This document shows positions 1 through 50,655 of a DNA stretch of 64,000 nt, piece by piece. Within the stretch, counting starts at the first letter, position 1; every line of letters begins with the position of its first letter. This DNA comes from Streptosporangiaceae bacterium (lineage in GTDB: Bacteria; Actinomycetota; Actinomycetes; Streptosporangiales; Streptosporangiaceae), in NCBI GenBank assembly GCA_025964695.1, contig JAOPYK010000173.1, positions 52,264-116,263 of the forward strand. The letters run 5' to 3'. Position numbers and translations under genes: made by a program. The notes under the pieces were generated by a model. The model had not been told where the DNA came from and did not search any database. It was given only the letters and a program-made list of their open reading frames with translations.

Positions 1-463
1 GAAGCACCGCGGCACCGCCGAGCCCGATGCCCAGGCACGCGGCTAGTCCGGCCCAGGCGCTCAGATGGAAGCCGCTGGCGTGGTCGGCCGACGCCCGTCC
101 GCCGCCGCTGATCGCCGTGGCCGAGAGAACGACGGCGATCATCAGCACGTACTCGTAACCGTTGCGGAAGATGAAGAATCCGTGGGTGCGATGCTCGATG
201 ACGCCTGCCACCGCCATCGTGCCGAGCAGTGCTCCGGCGGCCAGCGGGGTGAGGAAGCCGATGGCGAGTGCGAGCCCGCAGCCGACCTCGGTGAGAACGC
301 TCATCCAGGCGTGGGCGCATCCCGGGCGTAGCCCCAGGCTCTCGAACCAGCGGGCAGTCCCCGCGATCTTGCCGCCGCCGAATGCGTGATTCCAGCCGTG
401 GATCACCATGGTGAGCCCGACGATCAGCCGGATGATCAGCAGCGAAGTGTCGTTCGCGTGCAT
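1..463 (-). CDS. DoxX family membrane protein (3' end outside window)
   Basis: The minus-strand frame opens with ATG at 463 and runs off the left edge, so the C-terminus is missing. The translation has an N-terminal hydrophobic helix (LLIIRLIVGLTMVIHGW), then the DoxX-type stretch with a GGKIAGTARWFESLG segment and further membrane helices (GCGLALAIGFLTPLAAGALL, YVLMIAVVLSATAI). DoxX proteins are small four-helix membrane proteins, some linked to redox or thiol stress. The gene lies 105 bp downstream of the amidohydrolase on the same strand and may be co-transcribed with it. The family call is firm; the substrate is unknown. Confidence 0.85.
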   Translation of the reverse strand, partial: MHANDTSLLIIRLIVGLTMVIHGWNHAFGGGKIAGTARWFESLGLRPGCAHAWMSVLTEVGCGLALAIGFLTPLAAGALLGTMAVAGVIEHRTHGFFIFRNGYEYVLMIAVVLSATAISGGGRASADHASGFHLSAWAGLAACLGIGLGGAAVL

Positions 464-568
464 GCGTCGGTCTCCGTTCGCGTCAGCCGGGCACCGGCGG
501 CGAGGGCGCCGTCTGCCGGTGCACGGTCTTCGTGGGTGCCCTTCGCCGGGCCGCCCAGAGCAGCGGGG

Positions 569-1696
569 CTATGCCGGGAAGTGGTAGAGGGCGCGCGCGT
601 TGAGCTCGACGATCTTGCGCGCCTCGTCGTCCGGCACATCGGCCAGATGTTCGGCGAGCAACTTGCGCGTGTGCGGCCAGTTCGAGTCCGAGTGCGGGTA
701 GTCGCTCTCGAACAGGATGTTGTCGACCCCGATGCGGTGACGCTGCTCGAGGCCGGACTGGTCGGAGATGAAGCACCCATAGATGTGCTCCCGGAACAGC
801 TCCGAGGGGCGCTTGTCCTTGTTGATGTTGCTCCAGTACTTGTGCCGCCCCCAGGAGTAGTCGACCCGCTCCAGCAGGTAGGGCATCCAGCCGATGCCTC
901 CCTCGGAGAGGGCGACCTTCAGGTTCGGGAACTTGTAGAACACGTCGGAGATGAGCAGGTCGACGGTGGTGATCATCGAGTTCAGCCCGAACAGCGCGAT
1001 GCTGATGAACAAGTCACCGTCGGGCGCGAGCCCCTTTGGCATGCCGCCCGAACCGAAGTGCATCGACAGCGGGAGTTGCGCTTCCTCGCAGATGCGCAGG
1101 ATCGGGTCCCAGTGGTCGGTGTGGTACGACGGCAGGTCCAGCTTGTGCGGCGCCTCGACGAACGAGATCGATTTCGCGCCCTTGGCAGCGGTCCGCTCGA
1201 TCTCCTTCACCGACGCCTCGACGTCCCAGTACGGCACCATCATCAACGGGATCTGGCGGTCCGGTGCGTAGGCGCACCACTCGTCGAGGATGAAATCGTT
1301 GTAGGCGCTGATGCACAGTTTCGCCAGCTCCTTGTCCTTTGCGGCGAAGAACGTGCTGCCGGCGAACCCGCCGAAGTTGGGGAAGCACAGCTGGGCCCAG
1401 ACGCCCTCGATGTCCATGTCCTTGATGCGGTCCTCGATGCGGTGGCACCCGGGCAGCATGTCGTCGTAGCTGCGCGGGTCCAGCCCGAACTCGCGAGGGT
1501 GCTTGCCCGCGACGGCGTTGAGCGCGAAGTTGCCGGACTGTGCGCCTTCGTAGAGCCAGGTGTCGTTGCCATCCGGGAGCTTGACGATGCGCGGTGCCAC
1601 GTCCGCGTACTTGGCGGGAAGCCGATCCAGCCAGACTCGAGGATGTTCGATCACGTGGTCGTCGACAGAGATGATCTTGGCGTCGTCGGGCAGCAT
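569..1696 (-). CDS. Amidohydrolase family 2 (ACMSD-like TIM-barrel metal hydrolase)
   Basis: 375 aa from ATG 1696, which is preceded by a strong AGGAGGTAAT ribosome-binding site; the frame stays open to 1900 but that part is leader. The protein begins MLPDDAKIISVDDHVIEHP, giving the D-x-H metal motif expected at strand 1. Later come a conserved His (PLSMHFGSGG), SEGGIGWMPYLLERVDY and ESDYPHSDSNWPHT, all typical of amidohydrolase_2 (ACMSD/decarboxylase-like) enzymes. These act on C-C or C-N bonds of carboxylated substrates with a bound metal; the substrate here is unknown. Its leader and first residues (MLPDDxK) are duplicated at the P450 gene on the other side of the mce operon, suggesting a shared lipid or steroid-type regulon. 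That link is inference. Confidence 0.88.
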   Translation of the reverse strand: MLPDDAKIISVDDHVIEHPRVWLDRLPAKYADVAPRIVKLPDGNDTWLYEGAQSGNFALNAVAGKHPREFGLDPRSYDDMLPGCHRIEDRIKDMDIEGVWAQLCFPNFGGFAGSTFFAAKDKELAKLCISAYNDFILDEWCAYAPDRQIPLMMVPYWDVEASVKEIERTAAKGAKSISFVEAPHKLDLPSYHTDHWDPILRICEEAQLPLSMHFGSGGMPKGLAPDGDLFISIALFGLNSMITTVDLLISDVFYKFPNLKVALSEGGIGWMPYLLERVDYSWGRHKYWSNINKDKRPSELFREHIYGCFISDQSGLEQRHRIGVDNILFESDYPHSDSNWPHTRKLLAEHLADVPDDEARKIVELNARALYHFPA

Positions 1697-1867
1697 ACGG
1701 ATTACCTCCTGGTTTCGAACGGCAGCCGCTCGTCGGACCGGCAGCCCTTCCCGCGTTGGAGATCGCCGATGGCCGCTTCGAGAGACGCACGGCGAGTTGA
1801 AATTTCTCATGCTGGAAACGAACGACCTGCTCTCCCTAGAGTAGAACATGACTTGCGTTAGTAGCAA
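1697..1867 (-). promoter_or_regulatory. Leader copy 1, duplicated upstream of the P450
   Basis: The roughly 170 bp upstream of the amidohydrolase start are almost identical to 13189-13360 upstream of the P450. About 110 bp next to the start differ at only about ten positions, and the likeness extends into the first seven codons. At the distal end lies a dyad TTGC-N7-GCAA (1853-1867) next to TAGAACAT; both elements recur in copy 2. The TAGAAC half resembles a half-site of KstR-type lipid regulators (TnnAACnnGTTnnA), but the second half does not match. I read it as a shared promoter/operator with an unusually conserved 5' UTR. Confidence 0.7.
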
Positions 1868-1910
1868 CGTTGGATTTCCCAGGATCGACGGGCTCGTCAC
1901 GACAATGACG

Positions 1911-1945
1911 TGACCCGGTCGGCCTGCGGCAGGCCGACCGGGTCA
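1911..1945. terminator. Strong hairpin ending the mce operon
   Basis: A perfect 17-bp inverted repeat (left arm TGACCCGGTCGGCCTGC, one-base centre) lies 58 bp after the last gene of the mce operon and upstream of the amidohydrolase leader. The outer bases GACGT/ACGTC extend it with one bulge. There is no U-tract, as is common in actinomycetes. It separates the mce transcript from the amidohydrolase promoter. Confidence 0.75.
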
Positions 1946-2002
1946 ACGTCCCAAGGCGGAGATGGCGGCTGCGCCGACCAGCCACGGCGTCATGGGCGGC
2001 GT

Positions 2003-2905
2003 TCAGTGACCGGGCGAGGGGGAAGGGGAGGGGCTGGCACCCGCACCCGGGAGGCCACCGGTCGAGGGCGGACTGATCGGCTTCCCGGCCGGGTCGGTGT
2101 ATGACTGCCGGCCGGAACTCACCAAGGTGATGTTGTCGGCGAGCCATATGTGCTTGACCCGTTTCATATTGATCAGGAGGGTGGCACCGGTATTGGTCTG
2201 GATCGAGGCCGACGTCGTCACCCTGGTGTCCACCACGGCCAGCACGGTCGCGTCGTCACCCCGGATGACGCCGGGGTAGATTCCGCTGAGCCGGGCGGTG
2301 GAGGCGGTCTTGTTGGTGGTGAAGTAGGAGGTGAGTGCCGCTTCGGTGGGCTTGATCGCGTTGGCTGCGGAGCTGGTCAGCAGGGCGTACTTCGCGGCGA
2401 AGGACTGCTGCATGTGCTGGTAGTCCCAGTTGAAGAACGTCGCGGCGACCTTGCCCGCGTTCTGCTGGAGGGCCTGGCGCTGCGCCTTGTCGGCCGAGAG
2501 GTCGCTGTTATGGCGCCACAGCAGGACCATGATGGTGCTGACCGCCGCCAGCGCGATGACCAGCAGCGAGCTGATGAGGCTATGTGCGGATAGCCGGCCC
2601 GATGTCCATTTTAGAGCGGTACGCTGCGACCCTGCGGCCGGGCGTTCGGCCGTGCCCTCGTCCCCAGCATCGGCTTCGGCTTCCGTACCAGCGTCACCTT
2701 CGGCTTCGGCTTCCGTACCAGCGCCGGCTTCGGCTTCGGCTTCCGTACCAGCGCCGGCTTCGGCTTCGGCTCCCGTACCAGCGCCGGCTTCAGGTTCGGT
2801 GCAGGCCAACTGGTCGGGAGCAAGATCGTAGATGTAGACGGTCTTGGCGGAATCCGCCTGTGCGCTCGCGCCGGTGGCCGACGCCGTGGTCTTGTCGGTG
2901 GCCAT
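2003..2905 (-). CDS. Mce-associated membrane protein with repeat-rich acidic N-terminus
   Basis: 300 aa, starting at ATG 2905, one base after the MceF stop. Layout: a Thr/Ala-rich start, a low-complexity Glu/Ala/Gly/Thr tract (about residues 36-80, from the 30-bp DNA repeat), one membrane helix (about 110-128, SLISSLLVIALAAVSTIMVL), then a soluble domain of the Mce-associated (Mam) type with ATFFNWDYQHMQQSFAAKYA. It ends in a Pro/Ser tail (GASPSPSPSPGH). Mam proteins are thought to stabilise Mce complexes from the outer face of the membrane. The acidic repeat tract lies on the predicted cytoplasmic side, which is unusual. It is the last gene of the operon and is followed by the 1911-1945 hairpin. 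Confidence 0.8.
   Translation of the reverse strand: MATDKTTASATGASAQADSAKTVYIYDLAPDQLACTEPEAGAGTGAEAEAGAGTEAEAEAGAGTEAEAEGDAGTEAEADAGDEGTAERPAAGSQRTALKWTSGRLSAHSLISSLLVIALAAVSTIMVLLWRHNSDLSADKAQRQALQQNAGKVAATFFNWDYQHMQQSFAAKYALLTSSAANAIKPTEAALTSYFTTNKTASTARLSGIYPGVIRGDDATVLAVVDTRVTTSASIQTNTGATLLINMKRVKHIWLADNITLVSSGRQSYTDPAGKPISPPSTGGLPGAGASPSPSPSPGH
2671..2790. repeat. Four tandem 30-bp repeats inside the Mam gene
   Basis: Four head-to-tail copies of a 30-bp unit (2671, 2701, 2731, 2761) with only a few substitutions. Each encodes a ten-residue unit close to TEAEAEAGAG. The unit is a multiple of three, so copy-number change would keep the frame. It is an in-frame coding minisatellite, not CRISPR: there are no spacers. 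Confidence 0.9.
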
Positions 2906-2906
2906 G

Positions 2907-4217
2907 TCACTCTCCTCCGCTTGGGCGTTTCTTGGTCGCACGGCGTCGTCGCCACACGACGGGCACCGCGTACCACAGGACTCTGCCGAGAACCGCGGCT
3001 GCGATCAGCGGCGGAATGTAGATGAGCCACGAGGGTGGGCCGCCGGCTTCTCCGTTCGCGGCGTTCTTTACCGGGATCGGAGATGCTGCGGGGGAGGTGC
3101 CGGAGGCCGCCGTCTTGGCAGCCTGCCTGGACGCGGGCGCGGTGGGGATCTGCTGGGTGGGAAGTGACACACCTGGGCAGGTCGGGATACGCGGGATGGA
3201 AGGAAGTGGCCGCAGGCTCTTGTACTCCACCGGGCCCTTGGCCGATCTCGACGGTTGGAAGGTGAAGACGAAGTCCAGGTTCAGGTTGGGCTTACCGTTG
3301 ATCGGCGGGGTCGCTCCGGTCAGTGCGTTCACGAGCGCCGGGGACTGACGAAAGCTGATCGCCAGATCGTCGAGGCTGGTGGACGAGAGCAGCGTCGGAA
3401 GGGTGGCGTCGAGCGCGCTGATCAGACACTGGTCGGAGGCCTTCGACTTGGTCAGGATCCCGTTGACCCGGGTAAGAAGATCGGGTGTTCGCTGACGCAG
3501 TTGAGTGATCTCGGTGCTGACCGAGGCCAGCGAGTCGGTGACGGCGGCGACGTTGTCGATGCTGCTGCCGATCTGGTCGCGATGGGCGACGAGTACGCCG
3601 GTGACGTTCGTGAGATTCGAGATCAGGTTGTCGAGCAACTGCGTGTTGTGTGCGAAGGTCCCGGTGATCTGGCTGCCGTTGTCGATCACTTGACGCAACG
3701 AGTCGCCGCGGCCGTCCAATCCTGCGGCCAGTTCGTGGGTCACGGTGTGAAGGTCATCGGGATTCAGCCCGTTGACGGCCTTGTTCACGGCCTCGAACAG
3801 GTCGCCGTAACTCTCCGGCACGCTCGTACGGGAGATCGGGATCACCTCGCCGGCACGCATCGCAGTGGCGTCCCCGCCACCAGGACCCGGCTCCAGGTCG
3901 ATGTAAGGCTCGCCGATGGCGGACTTCCGGCCTGCCGCGGCTGTCATTCCCTCAGGGAGGTGAACGCCCTTGTCAATGTTGAGCGTCGCGATGACCCGAT
4001 CCCCGCTGAGGCGCACCGACTTTATCTTCCCGACGGCCACCCCCAGGTAGGTGACGTCGAAGTTCGGCTGGAGTCCAGGCGAGGACGAGAACTCCGCGGT
4101 GATGCGGTAGGGGTGGGTCAGCGCGTCGAACCTGATGACGTCCTTCAGCGCCCATCCGGTCATGACCACGCCGAGCACCGCGAATACGACCAGGTTGAGC
4201 AGGATGCGGCGGGTCAT
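2907..4217 (-). CDS. mceF: MceF, MCE-domain lipid-transport protein
   Basis: 436 aa; ATG 4217 overlaps the MceE stop by four bases (ATGA). One N-terminal membrane helix (about 5-25) is followed by the MCE/MlaD domain (about 38-115: YRITAEFSSSPGLQPNFDVTYLGVAVGKI...), then a long helical region that builds the periplasmic-type channel. The C-terminus carries a Pro/Ala/Ser linker and a second hydrophobic helix (WLIYIPPLIAAAVLGRVLWYAV) ending in RRRRATKKR. A C-terminal anchor is not part of the basic Mce plan. It is the sixth Mce subunit, expected to form the hexameric lipid conduit with MceA-E. Confidence 0.88.
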   Translation of the reverse strand: MTRRILLNLVVFAVLGVVMTGWALKDVIRFDALTHPYRITAEFSSSPGLQPNFDVTYLGVAVGKIKSVRLSGDRVIATLNIDKGVHLPEGMTAAAGRKSAIGEPYIDLEPGPGGGDATAMRAGEVIPISRTSVPESYGDLFEAVNKAVNGLNPDDLHTVTHELAAGLDGRGDSLRQVIDNGSQITGTFAHNTQLLDNLISNLTNVTGVLVAHRDQIGSSIDNVAAVTDSLASVSTEITQLRQRTPDLLTRVNGILTKSKASDQCLISALDATLPTLLSSTSLDDLAISFRQSPALVNALTGATPPINGKPNLNLDFVFTFQPSRSAKGPVEYKSLRPLPSIPRIPTCPGVSLPTQQIPTAPASRQAAKTAASGTSPAASPIPVKNAANGEAGGPPSWLIYIPPLIAAAVLGRVLWYAVPVVWRRRRATKKRPSGGE

Positions 4218-5260
4218 TGCGCGTGCTCCAACAGGGTTTTGAGGCTGGCGAGGATGTCCGGGCGCGCACCCGCTGCCGAACCTCCCTGAGATGTGGAGCC
4301 GCCGGTGGAATCGGGCCCGACGAGTTGCAGCACCGGGAATGCCAGCAGCTGACCGTTGTACACGGCTCTGGGAAGCACCTTGACGAAGTTCGTGAGGGTG
4401 GTGACGAGCTGGCCAAGATTGGTCTTGTCGCTCGCCAGCGTCCCGATTGACGGTCCGAGTCGCTCGATCAGCTTGCGGAGCTGGTCGGTACGGCGCACGA
4501 GGACCGTGTCATTGATGGTCTTTGCCAGGCTCGACAGGCCTTGCACCGCGCTAAGGATCTTGTCTCGGTCGTTGGCCAGCATCCGCGTCGTCTTGGCGAG
4601 GTTGTCGGGGAGCGCGCTCAGTTGCCGCTGCCCCTTCGCCAGCTGGCCGCCCAGCCGGGCGAGGTCGTCGACGGCGCCGGCCAGTTGCTCTCGCTGTGCG
4701 GTGAACATCACGAGAAGCTGGTTGGACTGCTTGATCATTGTGTTGAGCTGCTGCCCTTTACCGCCGAACGCCGTCGCACCGGCATCGACGATCCCGGCGA
4801 CGTCGTTGCCCGACACGGCGCTCAGCAGGGGACCTGCCTTACCGACGACCTCCTCGAACGCCGGTGCCACGCTCGTACTGGTGATCTGCGCGTGATTGGC
4901 GAGCATGGGCCCACCTGCCACCAGTGAACCCGGCGGCGGAGCGAGCCGGACGTAGTTCTCCCCGAGCAGCGAGGTGATCGACAGCTCGGCGCTGGTACCG
5001 GCGGGCACCTTCACGCCGTTCTTGATCGACATGGTGACCTGGGAGCGGTAGCCGGTTCCGGACCCGATCAGTTTGATCCCGGTAACCGATCCCACCGGCA
5101 CGTCAGAGATCTTCACGGCGTGACCGACGACGAGGTTCTGGACGTCGTCGAAGTCGGCGGTCAGGGTGAGATCTCCCTTGGGTGCTCCCAAGGTCTGCAA
5201 TGAGCAGCCCGAGAGCGTGACACTGAGGGCGAGCATCGCAGTCATCAGCAAACGTCTCAT
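4214..5260 (-). CDS. mceE: MceE, lipoprotein MCE-domain subunit
   Basis: 348 aa from ATG 5260, eight bases after the MceD stop. The N-terminus is a lipoprotein signal (MRRLLMTAMLALSVTLSGC, lipobox LSGC) followed by the MCE domain (about 30-110: GDLTLTADFDDVQNLVVGHAVKISDVPVGSV). The remainder is helical with a Ser/Gly-rich tail. A lipoprotein at the fifth position matches mycobacterial LprK/MceE. The open frame extends to 5977 upstream, but that part overlaps MceD and lacks the signal peptide. Confidence 0.88.
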   Translation of the reverse strand: MRRLLMTAMLALSVTLSGCSLQTLGAPKGDLTLTADFDDVQNLVVGHAVKISDVPVGSVTGIKLIGSGTGYRSQVTMSIKNGVKVPAGTSAELSITSLLGENYVRLAPPPGSLVAGGPMLANHAQITSTSVAPAFEEVVGKAGPLLSAVSGNDVAGIVDAGATAFGGKGQQLNTMIKQSNQLLVMFTAQREQLAGAVDDLARLGGQLAKGQRQLSALPDNLAKTTRMLANDRDKILSAVQGLSSLAKTINDTVLVRRTDQLRKLIERLGPSIGTLASDKTNLGQLVTTLTNFVKVLPRAVYNGQLLAFPVLQLVGPDSTGGSTSQGGSAAGARPDILASLKTLLEHAQ

Positions 5261-5268
5261 GTGACTTC

Positions 5269-6327
5269 CTACTGGCAATTGGAATAGGGAGGCGGAAGCG
5301 GGCACGGGACGTTCGGGTTGACGTTGGGCTGCTTGAGAAGCGCCGCCAGATACGAGCGGAGAAAATTGTCCATCGAGATTCGCGAGACGATCGAATGATG
5401 CTTCGGATTGTAGGCATTGATGAACGTGTAGTTCAGATCTGGCAGCGATTGCACGAAGGTCGCCAGCCTGCTCGCGTTGCCTTTCATGATGAGGGCGACC
5501 TGGGCGAACCTGGCAAGGTCTTCGGGCAGTTGTTGCTGGTAGGCCTTGACGAGCGCCCCGCCCTGGTTGACGAGGTGGGCGCTTCCTGCCACGAGGTCCC
5601 GGATGTTCTGGCGCTCGTCGGCGGCCATCTGGCTGGCCTGTGAGAAGTCGCTGATCAGTGAGCCGAGAAGGCGTTCGCGTCCGCGGACCACCCCGGCGAC
5701 CTGATTCAGATTCTGAGCGACCTGGAGCAGTTGGTCGTCTTGCGCGGCGATGTTGCCGGTGAGCGTTGCGGTCTGCTGCAACGCGGCGTTGAAGAGTTGT
5801 CCGTTGCCCCGAAGCGTTCCGGCGGTCTTGTGCAGGATGGTGTTGGCCTGTGCTGGGTCGAAGGAGTCGAGAAGCTTGCTGAACGATTTGAGCGCGTCGT
5901 CGACCTCCACCGGCGTGTGCGTACGGTCCTGCCGGATCACCGCGGAGTCGGGGAGCTTGGCGTCTCCAGGCTTCCACGGCGGGGAGAGGGTGAGGGTGCG
6001 CTCTCCGATGAGGCTGAGTGGCACGATGGAGGCGCTTACATTGGCCGGGAGTGGGACCTTCCGGTCGATCGACGCTTCGACCCGTACCTGACCGTTGACC
6101 GGCGTGACCGAGTCGATGGTACCGACCTGAACTCCCATGACCTGGACTTGCGAGCCGGCATAAAATGAGACGGCCCTCGCAAAATAGGCCGTTATATGGT
6201 ATTTCCCGGCCACGGACACCTGAAGGTTTTCAGGCACGAGTGAACACGCGCTGAGAGCCCAGGCCAACAACACGCCTAGGAGCGCCGCAGTGGCGCGAAC
6301 TCTCCGGACCGTCCAAGCGTCACCCAT
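5269..6327 (-). CDS. mceD: MceD, MCE-domain subunit with its own lipobox
   Basis: 352 aa from ATG 6327, overlapping the MceC end by eight bases. The N-terminus (VRATAALLGVLLAWALSACS) contains a lipobox LSAC, so this fourth subunit also appears to be a lipoprotein; in the mycobacterial operons I know of, only MceE is. The MCE domain follows (about 40-115: KYHITAYFARAVSFYAGSQVQVMGVQVGTI), then the helical channel region, ending in a Pro-rich PCPLPPPYSNCQ. It belongs to the predicted lipid-import complex. Confidence 0.87.
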   Translation of the reverse strand: MGDAWTVRRVRATAALLGVLLAWALSACSLVPENLQVSVAGKYHITAYFARAVSFYAGSQVQVMGVQVGTIDSVTPVNGQVRVEASIDRKVPLPANVSASIVPLSLIGERTLTLSPPWKPGDAKLPDSAVIRQDRTHTPVEVDDALKSFSKLLDSFDPAQANTILHKTAGTLRGNGQLFNAALQQTATLTGNIAAQDDQLLQVAQNLNQVAGVVRGRERLLGSLISDFSQASQMAADERQNIRDLVAGSAHLVNQGGALVKAYQQQLPEDLARFAQVALIMKGNASRLATFVQSLPDLNYTFINAYNPKHHSIVSRISMDNFLRSYLAALLKQPNVNPNVPCPLPPPYSNCQ

Positions 6328-7381
6328 TCGGAACTCCCGTGGGCACCATCGGATAATTGGGGGGATTGAAATTCGGCTGCGGTCCGGCCAGGCTCGGCTG
6401 TACGGGGCCCACACCGATGAAGTCGCCCTCGAGGAACCGTCCGGGTCCGTGAATCTGGGACAGCCCGTTGAACGTGGGACCGAACCAGGCGAGCGCGGCG
6501 TTGAGTGAGGGCAGGTTGCCTCCGGTGAGAGTCCGTGAAGCAAGGTCGAAATCGGCCAGGATCGTGTTGAGCTGTGCCTGGTGCCGGCTCACCACTTGAT
6601 CCAGAGTGCGGATCACTTGGCTGCCCTTCCCTAGGGCCGCGGTGAGTTCGGCTTTCCGCTTGACCAGTTCGTTGAGCAGGCTTTCCCCGTACGTGAGCAG
6701 TTGCGCCAGTTGCTGATCCTTCGACGCGAGGGCGGCGGTGAGCCCCTTGCTGTTGGCAATGATCGCGGTGATCTGCGGCGAATCCCGGTTGAGCGTCGAG
6801 GTCAGGTTCTGCAGGTTCGCGAGCATGACGCTGAGCTGCTTCTGAGTCGGCGGGTTGATGCCGGCGGCGGCCTTGAGGATCCGGTCGACTGATTGGGTGT
6901 CGAGCCTGCCGGCCAGGTCCGTGGTGGTGTTGAGTGCCTGGTTGAGCGTGTACGGGATGCTGGTGCGAGGCAGCGGGATGCGCCGCCCGTCAGCCGACAG
7001 GGAATCGGCATAGGGCCTGACCACCGGACCGGACAACTTGATGTACTGGCCACCGAGCAGGTTCGCCAGCTCGATGTCGGCGTGGGTCTGCGGGCCGAGT
7101 TTGATACCGTCGTCGACCTTCCAGCTGATGACGACGTTGCCGTGGGTGAAGTCGGGGCTGATGCCGGTCACGGTGCCGACCTTGACTCCGGCGAGCTGAA
7201 CCTCGCTCCCTACCTGCACCCCGCCGGTAGCGGCGAAGACCCCGCTCATCGAGTAGCCGCCCCGCCCGAGACCGAGGGTACCGAAGGAGAAGGCCAGAAA
7301 GATGAGGGCACCGATCACGGGGATGGAGACGGCTGCGACGGCCCGGGGGCTGCGGTCACGGAACGACGTGATCATCATCAT
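6320..7381 (-). CDS. mceC: MceC, MCE-domain subunit
   Basis: 353 aa from ATG 7381, sharing ATGA with the MceB stop. An N-terminal anchor helix (about 15-38, AVAAVSIPVIGALIFLAFSFG) precedes the MCE domain (about 45-125: GVFAATGGVQVGSEVQLAGVKVGTVTGI), which contains the conserved LLGGQYIKLSGP stretch. A long coiled-coil-like region follows, with a short Pro/Asn tail. No lipobox is visible. It is the third Mce subunit of the operon. Confidence 0.88.
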   Translation of the reverse strand: MMMITSFRDRSPRAVAAVSIPVIGALIFLAFSFGTLGLGRGGYSMSGVFAATGGVQVGSEVQLAGVKVGTVTGISPDFTHGNVVISWKVDDGIKLGPQTHADIELANLLGGQYIKLSGPVVRPYADSLSADGRRIPLPRTSIPYTLNQALNTTTDLAGRLDTQSVDRILKAAAGINPPTQKQLSVMLANLQNLTSTLNRDSPQITAIIANSKGLTAALASKDQQLAQLLTYGESLLNELVKRKAELTAALGKGSQVIRTLDQVVSRHQAQLNTILADFDLASRTLTGGNLPSLNAALAWFGPTFNGLSQIHGPGRFLEGDFIGVGPVQPSLAGPQPNFNPPNYPMVPTGVPNG

Positions 7382-8511
7382 TGCCCCTTGATCTGAGTGC
7401 CCAGCAGGAACAGGCTCGCCATCCGCTGGAAGGACGTCTGCTGTGCGGGGGTGAGCGGACGGCTGCCGCTTCCGGATCCCCCTTGGACCTGCGGCGGGGG
7501 CGGGAGGGTCTCCGGGAATCGGCAGACATCTGTCTGAACGACGTCGATGCAGAGCACAGTGCCTCGCACGAAGTGACCGCCGTCCATGGTCGTGAGCAGA
7601 GCCTGCAAAGCGGCCGGAAGGCCCCTGAGCAGCCCGGAAAGCTGGGAGACGTTACGGTGCGCGATCTCCAGAAGCGCCGCGGTGCTTTCGACGACGTTGC
7701 CGAGCTGAGGACCCTGGCCGCCCAGAACCGTGTTCAGGTTGGCGGTGAGTCCGCGGAGCTGGACGGTCGCGCCGTCCAGGACCGCCCGGTTGTCGGCAAA
7801 GGCCCGGGTGAGCGTTTGCAGGTTCTGCACCGTCTCCGCGATCTGCTGATCGCGCGTCGCCACGGCGTCGGTGACGGTCTTGTAGTTCGCGATCATCTGG
7901 TGGATGGTGCCGCTCCGGGAGCCGAAGACCTGCAAAAGAATGGAGAGATTGGTTGTGATCTGAGTGATGTTTCCTTCGTTTCCACTCAAGGCCACCGCGA
8001 AGGACTGCAGGATCTGGTTGATCTCGTTGGGGTCGAGGCTGCCGGTCAGCGGGCCCAGACTGTTGATCACCTCGCCGAGATCGACCGCGGACTGGGTTTG
8101 GCTCACGTGGGCCCCGTCGTGCAGCACCGCGTTGCTCGTGCCGGGTATGAGATAGACCTCGCGCTGACCGATGAGATTGCGCCACCGGATGGCGGCTCGT
8201 GAGTCCACCGGTATCCGGATGTTCCGGTTGACGTCCATGTCGACCGCCGCCCTGCCGTCGACGACTTTGACCCCCGTCACGCGTCCGACCGGTGTCCCCG
8301 CGACCTTGACCAGATCGCCCGTGGCCAGCCCGCTCACGTCGTCGAAGGTCGCGGCGACCCGGTAGGTGGGATGGAGATCGCTGCCCACGATGGCGTAGGC
8401 CATGTAGAGGGTGAGCGAGATCGTCACGATCGCGAAGAGCAGAAACTTGATCGCCGTGCTGCGTCCAGGGCCGCGGCGGCTGCGGCCGTGCGCTGACGTC
8501 CGGGCCATCAT
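7378..8511 (-). CDS. mceB: MceB, MCE-domain subunit
   Basis: 377 aa from ATG 8511; a second ATG follows directly at 8508, and both overlap the MceA stop. A GGAAAGGG ribosome-binding site lies just upstream. It has a basic N-terminus, a membrane helix (TAIKFLLFAIVTISLTLYMAYA), the MCE domain (YRVAATFDDVSGLATGDLVKVAGTPVGRV, about 45-125), a helical region and a C-terminal segment with two Cys (CIDVVQTDVC). It is the second Mce subunit. Confidence 0.88.
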   Translation of the reverse strand: MMARTSAHGRSRRGPGRSTAIKFLLFAIVTISLTLYMAYAIVGSDLHPTYRVAATFDDVSGLATGDLVKVAGTPVGRVTGVKVVDGRAAVDMDVNRNIRIPVDSRAAIRWRNLIGQREVYLIPGTSNAVLHDGAHVSQTQSAVDLGEVINSLGPLTGSLDPNEINQILQSFAVALSGNEGNITQITTNLSILLQVFGSRSGTIHQMIANYKTVTDAVATRDQQIAETVQNLQTLTRAFADNRAVLDGATVQLRGLTANLNTVLGGQGPQLGNVVESTAALLEIAHRNVSQLSGLLRGLPAALQALLTTMDGGHFVRGTVLCIDVVQTDVCRFPETLPPPPQVQGGSGSGSRPLTPAQQTSFQRMASLFLLGTQIKGQ

Positions 8512-9560
8512 TTCCCTTTCCTGGGAAGCGGGAGCGCTGGGGCCGGAGGCCCGCACAGGCCAAGGAACGTCCCGCAGAGTGCCTCGTTCACCCGTACCTG
8601 GGAGGTGGTCCGAGTCATGAGCGTGTTGTGCGGACCCGGCACCCGGACGATGTTGGCCACTTCCTGGAGGTCGGCGGCGACAGCGGCGATGAGCACCGGT
8701 ATGTATCTGCGGTTGGCATATAGCGTGTCGACCGTGGGGACGGCGCGGTCGAGGATGTGTCCGACCGCGCCTGGGGTGGCCAGCAGAAGTGTGTTCAGCA
8801 TCTGAGCCGTCCGTGTACTACCGTCCAGCAGCGCACTGATCTGCGCGGGGTCTCCGGCGATCGGTCCGGCGAGTGCGTTGAGGTTGCCCGCCATATCCAC
8901 GAGCCGATCTCCATGGGAAGCCGAGGCGCGCGCCAGGACGCTGCCATTGCCGATCAGTTGCCGGAGATTCGTGATGTTCTGAGAGCTGAGGTCCAGCAAC
9001 CGGCCGGCGTTGCCGATCGTGTCCGACAGTTCCTGGCCGCGGCCGCTGACGCCTCGGCTCAACGAACGCAGAATGGCGGCGACGTCCTGCGGATCGACGG
9101 CGCCCAACAGGCGATCGGCCGGCCTGGCGATATCGGCCAGGTCCTGCGGATCCTGGGTCTTGGTGACGGCGGCGCCGTCGGCCAGATACGGCCCGGTCCG
9201 TTCGCCGGAGCCCGGGACGAGGTCGATGAACTTGGGGCCGAACACCGACAGCGGCTGGACGACCGCCGTCGTCGTCACAGGTGCCTTCACGCCCTTGTTC
9301 AGGCGGATACGGACCCGTACCCGCCAGTTCGAGTCGAGCCGTATCGAGGATACGGTCCCCACATTGATGCCACGGATCTTGACGGCCGACTGGTCGTCCA
9401 GTCCTTCGCCAGATCGTCCGAACGTCGCCATCACATAGGTGGAGCCCGGATGGTTGTCCTGAATCCCGAGGTAGGCGGTGAACGCTCCCACGGCGAAGAG
9501 GCCGGCTCCGATGAGACCGAACATCCGGCGAGATCGTCGCGACAGATCTGAGTTGATCAT
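8508..9560 (-). CDS. mceA: MceA, MCE-domain subunit
   Basis: 350 aa from ATG 9560, sharing ATGA with the YrbE-B stop. The anchor helix (MFGLIGAGLFAVGAFTAYLG) is followed by the MCE domain (about 35-115: YVMATFGRSGEGLDDQSAVKIRGINVGTV) and a long helical segment, with a Pro-rich tail after a Cys pair (CGTFLGLCGPP). It is the first Mce subunit after the permease pair, the canonical order. The longer open frame to 9929 is an antisense-like extension into YrbE-B and is not used. Confidence 0.88.
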   Translation of the reverse strand: MINSDLSRRSRRMFGLIGAGLFAVGAFTAYLGIQDNHPGSTYVMATFGRSGEGLDDQSAVKIRGINVGTVSSIRLDSNWRVRVRIRLNKGVKAPVTTTAVVQPLSVFGPKFIDLVPGSGERTGPYLADGAAVTKTQDPQDLADIARPADRLLGAVDPQDVAAILRSLSRGVSGRGQELSDTIGNAGRLLDLSSQNITNLRQLIGNGSVLARASASHGDRLVDMAGNLNALAGPIAGDPAQISALLDGSTRTAQMLNTLLLATPGAVGHILDRAVPTVDTLYANRRYIPVLIAAVAADLQEVANIVRVPGPHNTLMTRTTSQVRVNEALCGTFLGLCGPPAPALPLPRKGK

Positions 9561-10408
9561 CCGGTCAGGCTCACTGTTCCTCCGTGCCCCCAGAAGATGT
9601 ACGAGAGCAGCAGGTTCACCATGATGATCGACACCATGGACTCGCGGATCGCCTGCCCGGTGGCGTGCCCGACGCCCACCGGGCCACCGACGGCCTGAAA
9701 GCCCCGATAGCAATGGACGATCACGATGATGAAGGCGAACACCACGACCTTGACAACGCTGTAGAAGACGTCGATCGGTGGCAGATAAAGGTGGAAGTAG
9801 TAGTCGTAGACGCCGGGTGAGATCCCGAAGAACTGGACGGATATCAGCCGGGTGGCGAAGAAGCTGGAGAACAGCGCGATCAGATAGAGCGGGATCAACG
9901 CGGCCAGCGTGGCGACCAGCCGGGTGCACACGAGGTAGGCCAGCGCGTTGATGCCCATGACCTCCAGCGCATCGATTTCCTCAGAGATCCTCATTGCGCC
10001 GATCTCCGCGGTGAAGGATGCCCCGAGCTGGAAGACCAGGGCGATTCCCGCGATGATCGGGGTGATCTCCCGGACGTTGGCGTAGCTGGCGATGAGACCC
10101 GCCAGGCTCTGCGCACCGATGCGCTGCAGGCCGGGGATGGCCTGTAGCCCGACCGTGGTCCCGGTGAAGAACGACATGAAAAAGATCACGAAGACCATGC
10201 CGAGCCCGACCACGATCGCGCCGACCCCCGCGACGATGTCGCTGATCTGCCGCAGAACGGTCCGGAAGTACCTGCCCCGCGCGATGTCGGTGACCAGGTG
10301 GTAGAAGACGCGCCCCACGAAGACGGCCAAGTCGGCCGCGCCCGATCCCGGGGTCCATCGCCATCGAACGGCATGGCGCAGCACACGTCCCGGCGAGATG
10401 GCAGCCAT
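9557..10408 (-). CDS. yrbEB: YrbE-B, MlaE-family ABC permease of the Mce system
   Basis: 283 aa from ATG 10408, which shares one base with the YrbE-A stop (TGATG). It is an MlaE/permease-domain protein: an N-terminal amphipathic region, then five to six membrane helices, with the conserved cytoplasmic motif ISEEIDALEVMGINALAYLV (about 135-155) that contacts the ATPase. It pairs with YrbE-A to form the inner-membrane permease. No MceG/Mkl-type ATPase gene is nearby; in actinobacteria it usually lies elsewhere. Confidence 0.9.
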   Translation of the reverse strand: MAAISPGRVLRHAVRWRWTPGSGAADLAVFVGRVFYHLVTDIARGRYFRTVLRQISDIVAGVGAIVVGLGMVFVIFFMSFFTGTTVGLQAIPGLQRIGAQSLAGLIASYANVREITPIIAGIALVFQLGASFTAEIGAMRISEEIDALEVMGINALAYLVCTRLVATLAALIPLYLIALFSSFFATRLISVQFFGISPGVYDYYFHLYLPPIDVFYSVVKVVVFAFIIVIVHCYRGFQAVGGPVGVGHATGQAIRESMVSIIMVNLLLSYIFWGHGGTVSLTG

Positions 10409-11223
10409 CAGATCCTCGGGGGGAACAGGGCGTAGTCCAGTGCGGACAGCACGTAATTGGCGGCGAACACCAGCATGGCGGAGATGACCGCCGCCTGGTT
10501 CACCGCCCTGCCCACCCCGCTCGGCCCGTAGTCGCAGTTCATGCCCTTCCAGCAGGCCACCGCGGCGGCGATGAACCCGAAGATCCAGGCTTTGATCAGG
10601 GTCGCCAGCAGGTCGGGAAGGGTCAGCAGCGAGGTCGCGCCGTCGAAGTACGACCCCGGGGTGACGCCCTCCTGGATGACGTTGAAGTAGTAACCCCCGA
10701 CGATGCCGGCCAGGATGATGAGGGAACAGAGCATCACCCCCACCGTGCTCGCGGCCCACAGCCGTGGGGTGACGAGGCGGTGCACCGGGTTGATGGCCAG
10801 GACCTCCATCGCGTCCAGCTCATCGCGGATCCGCCGCGAACCCATGTCCGACGTCATGGCCGAGCCACCCGCACCGGAGATCAGCAAGGAGGCGGCCACC
10901 GGCGCGACCTGTGTGACGAGTGCCTGCACGACACTGGCGCCCGTACCTGACTGAGCACCGATCTGCCGGACGATCTGCCCTACCTGCAGCGCGATGGTCC
11001 CGCCCAGCGGTATCGCGACGAGCATCACCGGGACGCTGGTGACCCGGGCCAGAAACCAGCACTGCTCGATGTACTCACCCCACCATCGGCGGACGTCCCA
11101 GGTCTTGCGGAACCCCTCGAGCGTGGTGATGAACAGCAGACCGCTCTGGTCGAAAAAGGCGCCGACCCTGCTTCCCACCGCCTGCGTGCCCGCAAGCACG
11201 CCGCGGTTCACGCCGCCGGCCAT
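10408..11223 (-). CDS. yrbEA: YrbE-A, MlaE-family ABC permease, first gene of the mce operon
   Basis: 271 aa from ATG 11223, preceded eight bases away by GGAGGG. A TTG at 11286 would add 21 hydrophilic residues but has a poorer context. The MlaE permease domain is clear, with the coupling motif RIRDELDAMEVLAINPVHRL (about 132-151) and hydrophobic helices either side. It is the first gene of a nine-gene operon, yrbEA-yrbEB-mceABCDEF-mam, in which nearly all junctions are translationally coupled. The system imports lipids in characterised relatives (for example sterols by Mce4); the substrate here is not determined by sequence. Confidence 0.9.
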   Translation of the reverse strand: MAGGVNRGVLAGTQAVGSRVGAFFDQSGLLFITTLEGFRKTWDVRRWWGEYIEQCWFLARVTSVPVMLVAIPLGGTIALQVGQIVRQIGAQSGTGASVVQALVTQVAPVAASLLISGAGGSAMTSDMGSRRIRDELDAMEVLAINPVHRLVTPRLWAASTVGVMLCSLIILAGIVGGYYFNVIQEGVTPGSYFDGATSLLTLPDLLATLIKAWIFGFIAAAVACWKGMNCDYGPSGVGRAVNQAAVISAMLVFAANYVLSALDYALFPPRI

Positions 11224-11261
11224 TCGGGCAACCCTCCGCTCGGGATCGCGGGACCGCTCAT
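11208..11261 (-). CDS. Possible 17-codon leader ORF overlapping the yrbEA start
   Basis: An ATG at 11261 follows a very strong GGAGGAGG site at good spacing and opens a 17-residue frame (MSGPAIPSGGLPEWPAA) that stops at 11208, 16 bases inside yrbEA. The downstream gene starts within it in another frame. This arrangement would couple yrbEA translation to the leader. It may instead be chance in GC-rich DNA; no family similarity is possible at this size. Confidence 0.3.
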   Translation of the reverse strand: MSGPAIPSGGLPEWPAA

Positions 11262-12006
11262 CCAGGCCTCCTCCTTCACCGGACAACCGGCGTCAGTCAC
11301 GTGTAGCTGGGCTGTCCGGTCTGTGATGGGGCACAGCAACCAGTCAGAAAAGCGAGCATTGATTGCCTTATTAATTGCTTGACTCTGCGTAACGATCCAT
11401 CGACCACGCGCCCCGGCAGCGCCGGGAGACGCGATCGCCGACGAGCGCGATGGCGTGTGGGGCCGCCCTGACGAATGACACGTGTGCCACTATGCATTGC
11501 ACAGCCCCCTCGTCTAGATGGCAATCCCAACTTCCACAGAAGTAGAGTGCAATGAGCGTACAGCGAGAATCACATTCGTCAAGTGCCTTCGGGACGGGCC
11601 GACCTCGGCCACATAGGCCCCCGGACACCCGTGCGGCGCAGCCAAACCGCCCCGGAGCCAGACGCCGGCGTATGCATGTCAGGCGAAAGACCGCAGAGGG
11701 TGGTGACGTGGAGTTAGGCCGGTCATACCGAGAATCAATTGGTCGGTTTTAACTTGTGCCCCCTACCGGCTCGGCCCCCTCCAGGAAGCCTGGCGCGTCA
11801 CGTCCGCGCACCTCGCCCCGGAGCACGGCACGGATGAGCGCCAGCCGTCCGCCGGGGCTGGAGGGGCCTACAGCCACACGACTCGACACCGCCGCGGCAA
11901 GGCTGCGGGTGCCATGTCGACGACACAGGCCGAAGAGACCGCTGAGCAAGGGGCTTGCGGCCCCGCTCAGGCCCGGCTCACCACGCCGGTCAGGGAACGA
12001 GGCCGG
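11262..12006. other. Intergenic region upstream of the mce operon
   Basis: No convincing gene. It should hold the mce promoter. The best candidate reads on the minus strand: TTGACG (11577-11582), 16-bp spacer, TACGCT (11555-11560), which would leave a 5' leader of over 300 nt. The stretch 11340-11400 is locally AT-richer. A minus-strand open frame at 11749-11949, just downstream of the P450, shows no recognisable domain and lacks a convincing ribosome-binding site. Confidence 0.35.
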
Positions 12007-13188
12007 TCAGGGGGTGAGGACGACGGGCAGGCGTTTGATACCGCGGATCATCGTGGAGCGGAGCCGCTCGGCCGGCCCGACCACGCTCCAGTGCCCGAAC
12101 CGATCAACGAGCTCCTCGAACAACACCCGGGCTTCGACCCGGGCGAGAGCGGCACCGAGACAGAAATGCTCACCGAACCCGAAAGCCAGGTGCGGATTGG
12201 GGTCACGGGCCACGTCGAGGTCCCCGGCGCTCGCACCGAAGACCCGCTCGTCACGGTTGGCGGACCCGTACAGCATGACGACCTGGTCGCCAGGCACCAG
12301 GTGCCGCCCGCCCAGCTCGGTGTCGGTGGTCACCGTGCGCGCCTGATGGACGAGCGGGCTCACCCAGCGCAACAACTCCTCGGTGGCACGCCCCACCTCG
12401 CGCTCCTCACGCAGACGCGCCTGCTGGTCGAGATGGCTCGTCAACCCGACCAAACCGTGGGTGATGAGATTGCGGGTCGTCTCGTTCCCCGCGCCCAGAA
12501 GCAGAAAACACAGCATGCTCAGATCCTGAGCCGAAAAGTCATCGTGCTCGGCCTCTGCCTCGATGAGCGCGCTGATCAGGTCGTCACCGGGGTCGGCCCG
12601 GCGCCGCCCGAAGATGTCCTCGAAATAGGCGAACTGCTCGGCCATGGCGGTGTCCTGCAGATGAGCGAAATCCGGATCCGCGTTCCCGACCGAGGCGTTG
12701 GTCCACTCGATGAACTTGTCCCGATCCTCCACCGGGACACCCAGCATCTCCGCGATGACGATGACGGGCACCCGGGCGGCGACGGTCTCCACGAAGTCGA
12801 ACGGCTCACCGACCGGGACCTCATCGAGCGCCTCCCGGACGATGCCGCGAATACGGGGCGCCAGCCTGGCCACCGCCCCCACGGTGAACGAACGATTGAT
12901 GAACCGCCGCTGAGAAGCATGACGCGGAGGATCGGTGCTGATCAAAGGCACTCCCCCAGGCACCATCATCTCGCCCCCCCGCATGGCTATGCCCTGACCG
13001 CTGCAGAACGTGACGGGGTCCCTCGAGACGGCCAGGACATCCTCGTGCCGGGTCAAAGCGAAGAACCCGCCCGAGGCACACCAGTACACCGGGCTCTCAT
13101 CGCGGAGCCGCCGGAAGGTGTCGAAGGGATCGGACGCATAGAACGCCGGATCGTTGAGCGGCAGGTTCTTAGTGTCATCAGGCAGCAT
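12007..13188 (-). CDS. Cytochrome P450
   Basis: 393 aa from ATG 13188 with an AGGAGGTAAT ribosome-binding site, the same context as the amidohydrolase at 1696. All P450 signatures are present: I-helix GAGNETT (232-238), the K-helix E271-LL-R274, and heme-binding FGFGEHFCLG with Cys343 as thiolate ligand. Length and soluble form fit the bacterial class I type needing ferredoxin and reductase, neither of which is adjacent. Relatives beside mce operons include steroid and fatty-acid hydroxylases, but the substrate cannot be assigned. The shared leader implies co-regulation with the amidohydrolase. Confidence 0.93.
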   Translation of the reverse strand: MLPDDTKNLPLNDPAFYASDPFDTFRRLRDESPVYWCASGGFFALTRHEDVLAVSRDPVTFCSGQGIAMRGGEMMVPGGVPLISTDPPRHASQRRFINRSFTVGAVARLAPRIRGIVREALDEVPVGEPFDFVETVAARVPVIVIAEMLGVPVEDRDKFIEWTNASVGNADPDFAHLQDTAMAEQFAYFEDIFGRRRADPGDDLISALIEAEAEHDDFSAQDLSMLCFLLLGAGNETTRNLITHGLVGLTSHLDQQARLREEREVGRATEELLRWVSPLVHQARTVTTDTELGGRHLVPGDQVVMLYGSANRDERVFGASAGDLDVARDPNPHLAFGFGEHFCLGAALARVEARVLFEELVDRFGHWSVVGPAERLRSTMIRGIKRLPVVLTP

Positions 13189-13360
13189 GCGGATTACCTC
13201 CTGGTTTTCGAACGGCAGCCGCTCGTCGGACCGGCAGCCCTTCCCTCGTTGGAAATCGCCGATGGCCGCTTCGAGAGACGCGCGGCAAGTTGAGACTCCT
13301 CATACTGGAAACGAACAATGCGCTCTCAGCAAGGTAGAACATTACTTGCACATGTTGCAA
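13189..13360 (-). promoter_or_regulatory. Leader copy 2, duplicated upstream of the amidohydrolase
   Basis: Second copy of the leader seen at 1697-1867. The dyad is better formed here: TTGCACATGTTGCAA (13346-13360) has 5-bp perfect arms, and the neighbouring TAGAACAT element is also kept. Compared with copy 1 there is a one-base insertion just before the ribosome-binding site, so the leader is not conserved as an in-frame N-terminal extension. That favours a regulatory DNA or RNA role over coding. Confidence 0.7.
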
Positions 13361-14593
13361 CGCCTGATTCACCCGTGCCACCACGCCGCCACTCCGCTGC
13401 AGCCCCGGTGGGCAACTGAGCAGACCCTGTGGGCTGCTCGTACAGTCGCGGGATCATCGAGGGCGAACCCCAGGAGATGTTCGGCGCTCGTACGACCCGG
13501 CCTGGAGGTCCGGGATGGAACTCGCGCTCCGAGGCCATCTTCTCCTCAGCGCAGAACACGCTCAGGATCACCCGGCGACAGCACGGCCGACGCGCCCCCT
13601 CGCCCCCGCACCTGATCAAGGTCAGCGCACCCCGGCACATCGACAGCAATCAACACCTCGCCGCCGGACCCGCACGAATGCGCAAGACATCGGCGTTCGA
13701 CATCAACGTTTATTAAGAGACAGGAACCCTCGCGCCCATTACGCTTCCCCGTAGGTGCCAGAAACCACCCTCACGCACACTATTCATCTCTCTCAGCGGC
13801 CCACAGTGAATCTGCCCACAATTAAGTCGACCGCCATCCGCTAGGGAAGAGCTTTGGTGGATCAAATACCGCGCGCTGCCGACGACCGCAGAAATAGAAA
13901 ACGACAGCCCCGCGGAAATCAGAAAAGCACTCCCGAATTCTCGGGTCATGCGCATTTCGAGAATTCCGAGAACCTGCGACTCCCTGGATACGCTCGCTAC
14001 ACACTTCCGGATCAAGAGGATCCGATACAACCTACCTGTGCATTCGTCACGCAGACACTTCTGCAATGGGATGTGGGGCATCTGCGAGAGCAGATCGTTC
14101 CCACCCTGGCCGAGCTCATCCACGACGCCATGACGGTCAACCCCCGCTGGCTGGCACAGGAACGGGCATCCCAGCTCATCATGCTCAAACACCAACACTT
14201 GCTGGCCTGCGCTATCACTCGTCTCCGCGACGAGACGGCGACACTGAGCGCGCTGGAACTCGACCCATCATCAAGGGTTTCCAGTCCGCCTTGGGGCTGG
14301 ATCTCACGTGGCACCCGGGAGCAAGATATCTGGCTCGTCTTCTCGAGCTCACAGTGAACCTGTGGCGGGTCGTAACGGTCAGATGGGCGCAACCCGGCGT
14401 AGTGCCCTTGTATCGGGTGAGGTAGGCGGCTTCTCGCCGGGGTCGAGTAGACGGCAGTTGGCGGGATACTGGTCTTCATCGGTGCCCCTCCGCGAACTTA
14501 CCGCTCGATGGTAAGGCCGAGATCCGACAGCCGTATCGGGGAAGGGAGAGCGCTGCTGGTACCGGTGTCCTCTGGTGCGGTCATGAGCGATCC
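13361..14593. other. Decayed intergenic stretch
   Basis: About 1.2 kb between the P450 leader and the metal ATPase with no intact gene. 13361-13850 shows only short overlapping frames without recognisable domains. 13854-14357 holds a possible ATP-binding-protein relic, listed separately. 14358-14593 shows nothing identifiable. Base composition is more mixed than in neighbouring genes, as expected for DNA under weak selection. Confidence 0.5.
13854..14357 (+). pseudogene. Possible relic of a histidine-kinase-like ATPase (anti-sigma type)
   Basis: The frame from TTG 13854 contains LRLPGYARYTLPDQEDPI...AFVTQTLLQWDVGHLREQIVPTLAELIHDAM. Its pattern resembles the N-terminal half of the small HATPase_c_2 proteins abundant in filamentous actinomycetes (R-x-F-V-x-x-x-L-x-x-W-x-x-x-x-L ... 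L-V-x-E-L-V-T-N-A). The N-box Asn is replaced (LIHDAM), and no G1/G2 ATP-lid glycines follow. It therefore looks non-functional or very diverged. Confidence 0.3.
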
Positions 14594-35624: not shown

Positions 35625-36569
35625 ATGGCTGCTACCCCACCCATCACCACGCCGTTCACCGCCGAGTCCACCGCCGCCGAGGTCGTGGACGGTATCGACC
35701 TCACCGGCCGCCGGGTCATCGTGACCGGCGGGGCTTCCGGCATCGGCATCGAGACCGCCCGGGCGCTGGCCGGCGCCGGCGCGGAGGTGACCCTGGCCGT
35801 CCGCAACCTCGAGGCGGGCGCGCACACCGCCGAGGACATCGTCGCGACCACCGGCAACAAGCAGGTCCTCGTCGCGCCGCTGGACCTCGCCGACCAGGCG
35901 TCCGTCGCGTCGTTCGTCGCCGGGTGGGACGGCCCGCTGCACATTCTCGTCAACAACGCCGGCGTGATGGCCTCACCCGAGATGCGTACGCCGGAGGGCT
36001 GGGAGATGCAGTTCGCCACCAACCACCTCGGCCACTTCGCGCTCGCCACGGGACTGCACGGGGCGCTGGCGGCGGCCGGCGGAGCCCGCGTCGTGTCGGT
36101 GAGTTCAAGCGCGCACCTGCGCTCGCCGGTCGTCTTCGAGGACATCCACTTCGGGCAGCGAGCGTACGAGCCGTGGGCCGCGTACGGGCAGTCCAAGACG
36201 GCCAACGTCCTGTTCGCGGTCGAGGCGACGAAGCGCTGGGCCGGCGAGGGCATCACCGTCAATGCGCTGATGCCCGGCGGGATCCGGACCAAGCTGCAGC
36301 GGTACGTCACCGATGAGGACCTCGCCCGGCTGCGCGCCCAGAGCGGCGGCGGCGGCCCGGCATGGAAGACACCCGAGCAGGGCGCCGCCACGTCCGCGCT
36401 GGTCGCGACCTCACCTGCGCTCGAGGGCATCGGCGGCCGGTACTTCGAGGACTGCAACGAGGCAGCGCTGAACGAGCCCGGTTCACGCCGGGGCGTCGCG
36501 GCGTACGCGCTCGACCCCGAAGCGGCCGCGCGGCTCTGGCACGTCTCCGTCGAGACGCTGGCCTCGTAA
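35625..36569 (+). CDS. Short-chain dehydrogenase/reductase
   Basis: 314 aa from ATG 35625. The Rossmann motif TGGASGIG (about 34-41), NNAGVM (about 109-114), a catalytic Ser in VSVSSSAH and the YGQSK tetrad element are all present, so it should be active. Length and sequence are close to the WWOX/retinol-dehydrogenase-like branch of actinomycete SDRs. Regulated by the divergent TetR. Substrate unknown. Confidence 0.92.
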   Translation: MAATPPITTPFTAESTAAEVVDGIDLTGRRVIVTGGASGIGIETARALAGAGAEVTLAVRNLEAGAHTAEDIVATTGNKQVLVAPLDLADQASVASFVAGWDGPLHILVNNAGVMASPEMRTPEGWEMQFATNHLGHFALATGLHGALAAAGGARVVSVSSSAHLRSPVVFEDIHFGQRAYEPWAAYGQSKTANVLFAVEATKRWAGEGITVNALMPGGIRTKLQRYVTDEDLARLRAQSGGGGPAWKTPEQGAATSALVATSPALEGIGGRYFEDCNEAALNEPGSRRGVAAYALDPEAAARLWHVSVETLAS

Positions 36570-50181: not shown

Positions 50182-50655
50182 AGGCCGTGCATTACCCAGC
50201 AAGACCCGCTCCTACCATCCCCCTTCGGACGGTCCCGTCAGAACACGGCGAAGGCGTACCTATCCAGCAGACCGTCGTCTCCGCGGAGCACGGCGCGCGG
50301 GAGATCCTCCAGCCAGGCACGCAGGTCGGCGTCCTGCTCGGGGCCTGAACTCACGCTTTGAGTCGGGCATAGACCAAGCACGACGAATTCGACCGCCCGC
50401 GCGGATCGCGGTCGAGCTTCACCCCGTACCGATTCCCGCGCCACCCCCCGATCCCGCGCCACCTCCCGATCCGTCTCCCCGCTCTCCCTTACGACTGGAA
50501 CGTCTCGACCGGCCGGCGGGCGGCGTCGAGGAGGACGGTGACCGCGGGATGTCAGGACGGCCGGGCAGGGGCATGCGGGCTACGACGTCCGCAAGTCGGC
50601 GCGGGGTCACGGCCGGCGCGATGGCGGTGGCGCCACCGCAGCGGCCGACGGCCCG
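50182..50655. other. Intergenic region upstream of the four-gene operon
   Basis: No firm gene. A minus-strand frame 50238-50462 (74 aa, ending DADLRAWLEDLPRAVLRGDDGLLDRYAFAVF) has protein-like composition, but its GTG start sits directly on the only purine-rich site, and I recognise no family. 50434-50469 is a tandem 18-bp duplication. The operon promoter should lie near 50185-50240. Confidence 0.4.

Follow-up and report, generated by a model that had tools for sequence, protein, structure and literature searches.

The window analysed here, a stretch of 64,000 nucleotides from a Streptosporangiaceae bacterium (GCA_025964695.1, contig JAOPYK010000173.1, positions 52,264 to 116,263), holds an amidohydrolase gene and a cytochrome P450 gene that belong to different Pfam families, run on the minus strand from ATG codons at 1696 and 13188, and are preceded by two copies of the same upstream segment lying 11.5 kb apart, with an mce operon between them (Table 1). 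A DoxX-family membrane protein (window 1-463, minus strand) follows the amidohydrolase in the same direction, an arrangement seen both in this species and in the genus relative described below.

Table 1. Genes, leaders and promoter elements of the duplicated region, in window coordinates.
Feature	Position	Strand	Basis
Amidohydrolase gene (Amidohydro_2, 375 aa), putative donor	569..1696	-	PF04909, E 3.5e-37
First seven codons of the amidohydrolase (MLPDDAK), putative donor	1676..1696	-	sequence comparison
Amidohydrolase leader with RBS AGGAGGT, common only to the P450 leader	1697..1806	-	blastn and alignment
Predicted early transcribed region, amidohydrolase; partly common to the DHDPS-family gene leader at C323:32296 (21/33)	1807..1840	-	
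Class I core, amidohydrolase; predicted -35 TTGCTA (1862-1867) and -10 TACTCT (1838-1843), 18-bp spacer	1841..1867	-	exact pattern match
mce operon between the two copies (two MlaE/YrbE permeases, MlaD/Mce proteins)	2907..11223	-	Pfam; starts from own gene caller
Class II promoter upstream of the mce operon, TTGACGAA-N5-YTCTC-N2-TGTACGCTC-N4-CAYTCTACT, 42 bp	11541..11582	-	pattern match
Cytochrome P450 gene (393 aa), putative recipient	12007..13188	-	PF00067, E 1.2e-24
First seven codons of the P450 (MLPDDTK)	13168..13188	-	sequence comparison
P450 leader with RBS, putative copy	13189..13299	-	blastn and alignment
Predicted early transcribed region, P450; 23/33 as in the amidohydrolase leader, 18/33 as in C323:32296	13300..13333	-	
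Class I core, P450; predicted -35 TTGCAA and -10 TACCTT	13334..13360	-	exact pattern match

In an alignment that begins 2 bp before the TTGC of the predicted -35 box and takes in the first seven codons, the two copies agree at 166 of 195 columns, and there is a single one-base indel, which falls inside the A-run before the ribosome-binding site (RBS). The initial annotation had drawn attention to near-identical upstream DNA, RBS and first seven codons in front of unrelated genes, at coordinates that prove correct, and its figure of about ten differing sites in some 110 bp compares well with our count of 9 differences, indel included, over the 112 columns that adjoin the start codons (position 60 onward). 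The likeness is uneven along the segment: when positions are counted from the first T of TTGC, 16 of 60 differ in the promoter and early transcript versus 13 of 133 downstream (Fisher p = 0.004). The segment has two layers: a promoter core, and a leader of about 110 bp together with its RBS and first codons, the second layer being common to these two genes only. Given the divergence of the promoter parts, a single event does not account for both layers unless that part evolves faster, and faster change, instead of greater age, may be the cause of its divergence.

Pairwise scoring of the 180-bp regions upstream of the 55 genes that our own gene caller predicts within the contig's first 70 kb (1,485 pairs) places the amidohydrolase and the P450 on top with 123, the runner-up scoring 37; the latter pair consists of two class II leaders, scores of 29 and 27 come from pairs that include a third class I leader, and a further pair scores 28. 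The initial annotation had proposed a search of the genome and its relatives, which yields two copies and no third in the 7.66 Mb genome by blastn and, for the leader, no blastn match in the genus relative. Across 100 genomes (its own included, with at most eight candidates scored in each), short matches of 38 and 45 bp turn up in two others; these lie in other genera, within frames that run for 845 and 395 codons without a stop, and are probably due to chance.

The promoter layer is built on a 27-bp class I core, TTGC-N7-GCAAGT-N4-TTCTAC, whose exact form has six sites, spread over two of 341 genomes of the family: four lie here and two in the genus relative G001, all in the same catabolic cluster; the reversed-pattern control finds no site in the same 341 genomes. 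The pattern was written from sites already seen, and its informative part is the absence elsewhere together with two further sites that it located here, at C323:9763 and C323:32270 (C323 being the contig of the window); with two mismatches allowed the control matches too, so that weaker sites are given no weight. In layout the core resembles a sigma-A-type promoter (TTGCnn, 18 bp, TACYYT), and an inverted repeat lies over its -35 box. This predicted -35/-10 assignment, read from the motifs themselves, fits five of the six sites, which have TACYYT at a distance of 18 bp from TTGCnn; the sixth, C323:9763, has a poor -10 (TACCAC) and stands 313 bp ahead of the gene assigned to it by our caller. 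The repeat TTGC-N7-GCAA occurs four times on the 116-kb contig (1.01 expected) and three times on the 61-kb contig of the relative (0.56 expected), and every occurrence on both is a class I or class-I-like site. A collection-wide scan returned 12 stretches, two of them the relative's sites and ten in other bacteria (cyanobacteria, Bacteroidales and others), the ten being taken as chance. The regulon-wide leader that the initial annotation had entertained is thus supported for the 27-bp core, with its sites confined to one cluster, and not for the 110-bp leader.

Our comparison covers one genus relative, G001, whose contig C471 (60,762 bp) carries a related cluster in which 45 of 51 predicted genes match the contig of the window (E <= 1e-8, not all one-to-one). 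Gene order is rearranged between the two species, the relative's P450 lying downstream of its mce operon and its amidohydrolase being inverted, and the proteins are 91% (amidohydrolase) and 80% (P450) identical; among 345 order-level genomes, the amidohydrolase was found at E <= 1e-205 in this genome and the relative and in no others. Both orthologues of the relative have a class I core about 100 bp before their start codons. Beyond the core, its two leaders align neither with one another nor with those of the window, apart from the part adjoining the start of the amidohydrolase, and its amidohydrolase leader is 72 bp shorter than that of the window. Since the relative has the core before both orthologues and quite different leaders, the core is probably the older layer and the copied leader the younger one.

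The direction of copying can be approached through the protein starts. The window P450 begins MLPDDTKN-LPLNDP, and 53 of the 92 listed P450 homologues (E <= 1e-120; eight of the 92 are shorter than 380 aa) have an LPLNDP-type anchor that can be aligned near the start, the residues preceding it being variable. D-T-K-N before the anchor is found in one of these 53 alone, P0004, which shares 392 of 393 residues with the window P450 and belongs to a cluster with a longest contig of 19,555 bp; in the 52 others, D-T-K (codons 5-7 of the P450) has no counterpart. This holds for every alignable start among the P450s of 77-85% identity (P0005-P0021, P0016 being the relative's). The amidohydrolase start, for its part, is broadly kept: among 120 listed homologues of 382 found, 86 begin with MLP, 109 fit [MV](x)LPx[DE] and 112 fit a looser pattern. 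The relative's proteins start with MRSSGKDPLPD-LPLTDP (P450) and MLPDDAKI (amidohydrolase). The two window genes differ at 4 of the 21 nucleotides of their first seven codons, after which the P450 continues in sequence common to that of the relative. Since D-T-K follows the amidohydrolase start (MLPDDAK) and is absent from the 52 other P450s, the amidohydrolase is the most likely source of these codons and, because the leader is continuous with them, of the leader as well. Yet 12 of those 52, the relative included, have L-P-D immediately ahead of the anchor, so that codons 2-4 are no proof of capture, the direction rests on D-T-K and the continuity of the leader, and the window P450's own L-P-D may be ancestral; the donor could also have been another, since lost, gene of the amidohydrolase family. 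These observations support the copied promoter cassette that the initial annotation had listed among its explanations, and they give it a probable direction from amidohydrolase to P450.

As to timing, synonymous divergence between the two species amounts to 0.58 for the amidohydrolase, 0.59 for the P450 and 0.71 for a yrbE gene. Because these values are several-fold higher than the divergence of about 8% (9/112) between the two leaders, the comparison suggests that the copying took place after the species split, provided that the leader is roughly neutral.

We put at roughly three in four the probability that the leader of the amidohydrolase, with its RBS and start codons, was copied onto the P450 and replaced the leader and start that the P450 had of its own. 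Recombination or gene conversion could have been the route: recombination between two class I promoters, whose similarity possibly served as the anchor, would have run on through the amidohydrolase leader and stopped soon after the start of the gene, perhaps with the help of the L-P-D codons present in both families, and the P450 would thereby have received the amidohydrolase leader, RBS and first codons. The change was possibly harmless to the P450, because P450 homologues vary before LPLNDP, and would be expected, as far as the sequence allows one to judge, to give both genes the same initiation of transcription and translation. A stronger RBS was considered as the gain from such a capture and dismissed, the duplex energies being alike (-12.1 and -11.7 here, -11.0 and -11.2 in the relative).

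Full-length leader copies found only here, together with a divergence of 9/112 that fits a young neutral copy, would also suit a passive duplication, that is, a chance recombination copy with no common regulatory role whose likeness merely reflects recency. We consider this unlikely, inasmuch as the copied piece stops just inside the gene with RBS and start intact, and the core stands on both genes here and before both orthologues of the relative despite leaders that cannot be aligned. Less probable still is a regulon-wide leader of ancestral origin that selection has maintained here and that the relative has lost. In its favour one may cite the DHDPS-family leader at C323:32296: it has the core and, over the early transcript (positions 27-60), agrees with the amidohydrolase leader at 21/33 positions and with the P450 leader at 18/33, compared with 23/33 between the latter two and 5-16/33 in the remaining 25 site pairs. 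Past position 60, however, the likeness ends, with agreement at just 14/50 with either leader, and the D-T-K-N that precedes LPLNDP in the P450 looks derived.

A structured 5' UTR, in which a ligand- or protein-binding RNA fold would have kept the 110 bp alike, had also been suggested in the initial annotation, and a leader predicted to be about 130 nt long, which hardly differs between the copies and can form the same hairpin before the RBS in each, might seem to lend itself to such a role. Yet the fold energies are no better than those of shuffled sequences (z 0.18, 0.26, -0.60 and 0.14), no Rfam family reaches its gathering score in window 1-15000, none of 32 pairs is changed on both sides (a weak test of covariation with two sequences) and the relative lacks a match to the leader, so that the suggestion finds no support in any of the checks and a riboregulator appears very improbable. 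We give even less credence to a conserved short upstream reading frame or N-terminal extension: the two leaders do have an ATG at a matching position, in the reading frame of the amidohydrolase, but five of the seven codon differences in that frame alter the amino acid and the one-base indel disrupts it in the copy before the P450, a point on which the initial annotation had rightly excluded a conserved in-frame extension.

The mce operon that lies between the two copies has a promoter of its own, and the earlier description of the leaders as bracketing it is accurate by position and not otherwise. This class II promoter is unlike the class I leaders and is likewise cluster-specific, with further sites at C323:34671 and C323:39568 here and at C471:51970 and C471:54905 in the relative. 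The pattern, which was written from these five sites (three here, two in G001), has with up to three mismatches no further site in the two genomes or in the genome G018 (control 0), and none before the relative's own mce operon; with up to two mismatches it is found in 2 of 100 relatives. A 17-bp intergenic palindrome, GTAGAR-N5-YTCTAC, occurs once here (C323:16599-16615) and twice in G001 (C471:17467-17483 and 36160-36176), is confined to the cluster in both genomes (the control matches one place in G001) and is absent from G018 and G002. The YTCTAC half is common to class I, class II and the palindrome. A TetR gene (PF00440, C323:32749-33456) and a PucR-type gene (PF13556, C323:37445-38656) are conserved in both clusters with 69-71% identity; the class I core is the predicted target of a cluster-encoded regulator, for which these two are natural candidates, and one or the other may co-regulate the amidohydrolase and the P450. 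The three cluster-specific promoter/operator classes make the regulator of this uncharacterised mce/P450 catabolic cluster directly testable. A broader proposal, which we advance tentatively and with the odds somewhat against it, is that a plug-in expression module passes from operon to operon within the cluster: an older promoter module would by now precede three or four transcription units, and a younger one, complete with early transcript, leader, RBS, start codon and first codons, would have overwritten the start of an unrelated enzyme, whereby the initiation of transcription and of translation would be standardised in one step.

When unrelated genes of a genome have almost the same upstream DNA, one speaks of a mobile promoter, the outcome of promoter propagation, and such cases in prokaryotes have reportedly been described by Matus-Garcia et al. 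in 2012 and by van Passel et al. in 2014. Promoter propagation and mobile promoters in prokaryotes are also mentioned, with citations, in PMC8049555. The likeness lies in an upstream segment repeated almost unchanged before unrelated genes of the same genome, which this pair displays, whereas here two full copies and four promoter cores all sit in one cluster, the copied piece includes the RBS and first codons and likely gives a chimeric N-terminus, and the promoter, predicted from its -35 and -10, has a core that belongs to a cluster-specific family. Promoter propagation is the nearest known kind, and the captured, partly readable start codons are the unusual part. Copied upstream DNA rarely reveals its donor; here the codons carried along point to one, the genus relative displays the state without the copied leader, and the case offers a roughly datable example of how a gene may join a regulon or tighten its place in it.

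Two known repressors invite comparison with the predicted control of the cluster. KstR of mycobacteria is a TetR repressor whose 14-bp palindrome, TAGAAC-N2-GTTCTA, partly overlaps the -10 (PMC1995591). The cluster resembles the KstR regulon in its lipid-type catabolic genes, its TTCTA half-site at the -10 and its TetR genes, and differs in that the class I sites read GCAAGT-N4-TTCTAC instead and that the palindrome GTAGAR-N5-YTCTAC has one more base between its TAGA and TCTA arms. TAGAACNNGTTCTA was found on neither contig. Of the KstR operator, TAGAAC-N2-GTTCTA (core TnnAACnnGTTnnA), the strict form is likewise absent from both contigs, and the loose form occurs once, at C323:5576, away from these leaders. 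Mce3R, a double TetR repressor of mce3, has asymmetric sites (PMC11667970). The resemblance consists in control near an mce operon, in the asymmetry of the class I core as a whole, and in one TetR of the relative's cluster that resembles part of Mce3R (E 2.9e-15); that TetR, however, is single, 198 aa long, and has its best match in the genome of the window on another contig, at 61%. The four TetR genes examined, one here and three in the relative (a subset of contig genes was scanned), encode 198-253 aa with one TetR_N stretch each and thus differ in architecture from the double-TetR Mce3R.

The relative's cluster also has features of its own. A NIT-domain sensor histidine kinase (C471:21796-23817), with no match on the contig of the window, lies directly upstream of its P450 promoter, and the cluster TetR gene is present in two copies (C471:15800-16561 and 50278-50985) versus one on the contig of the window.
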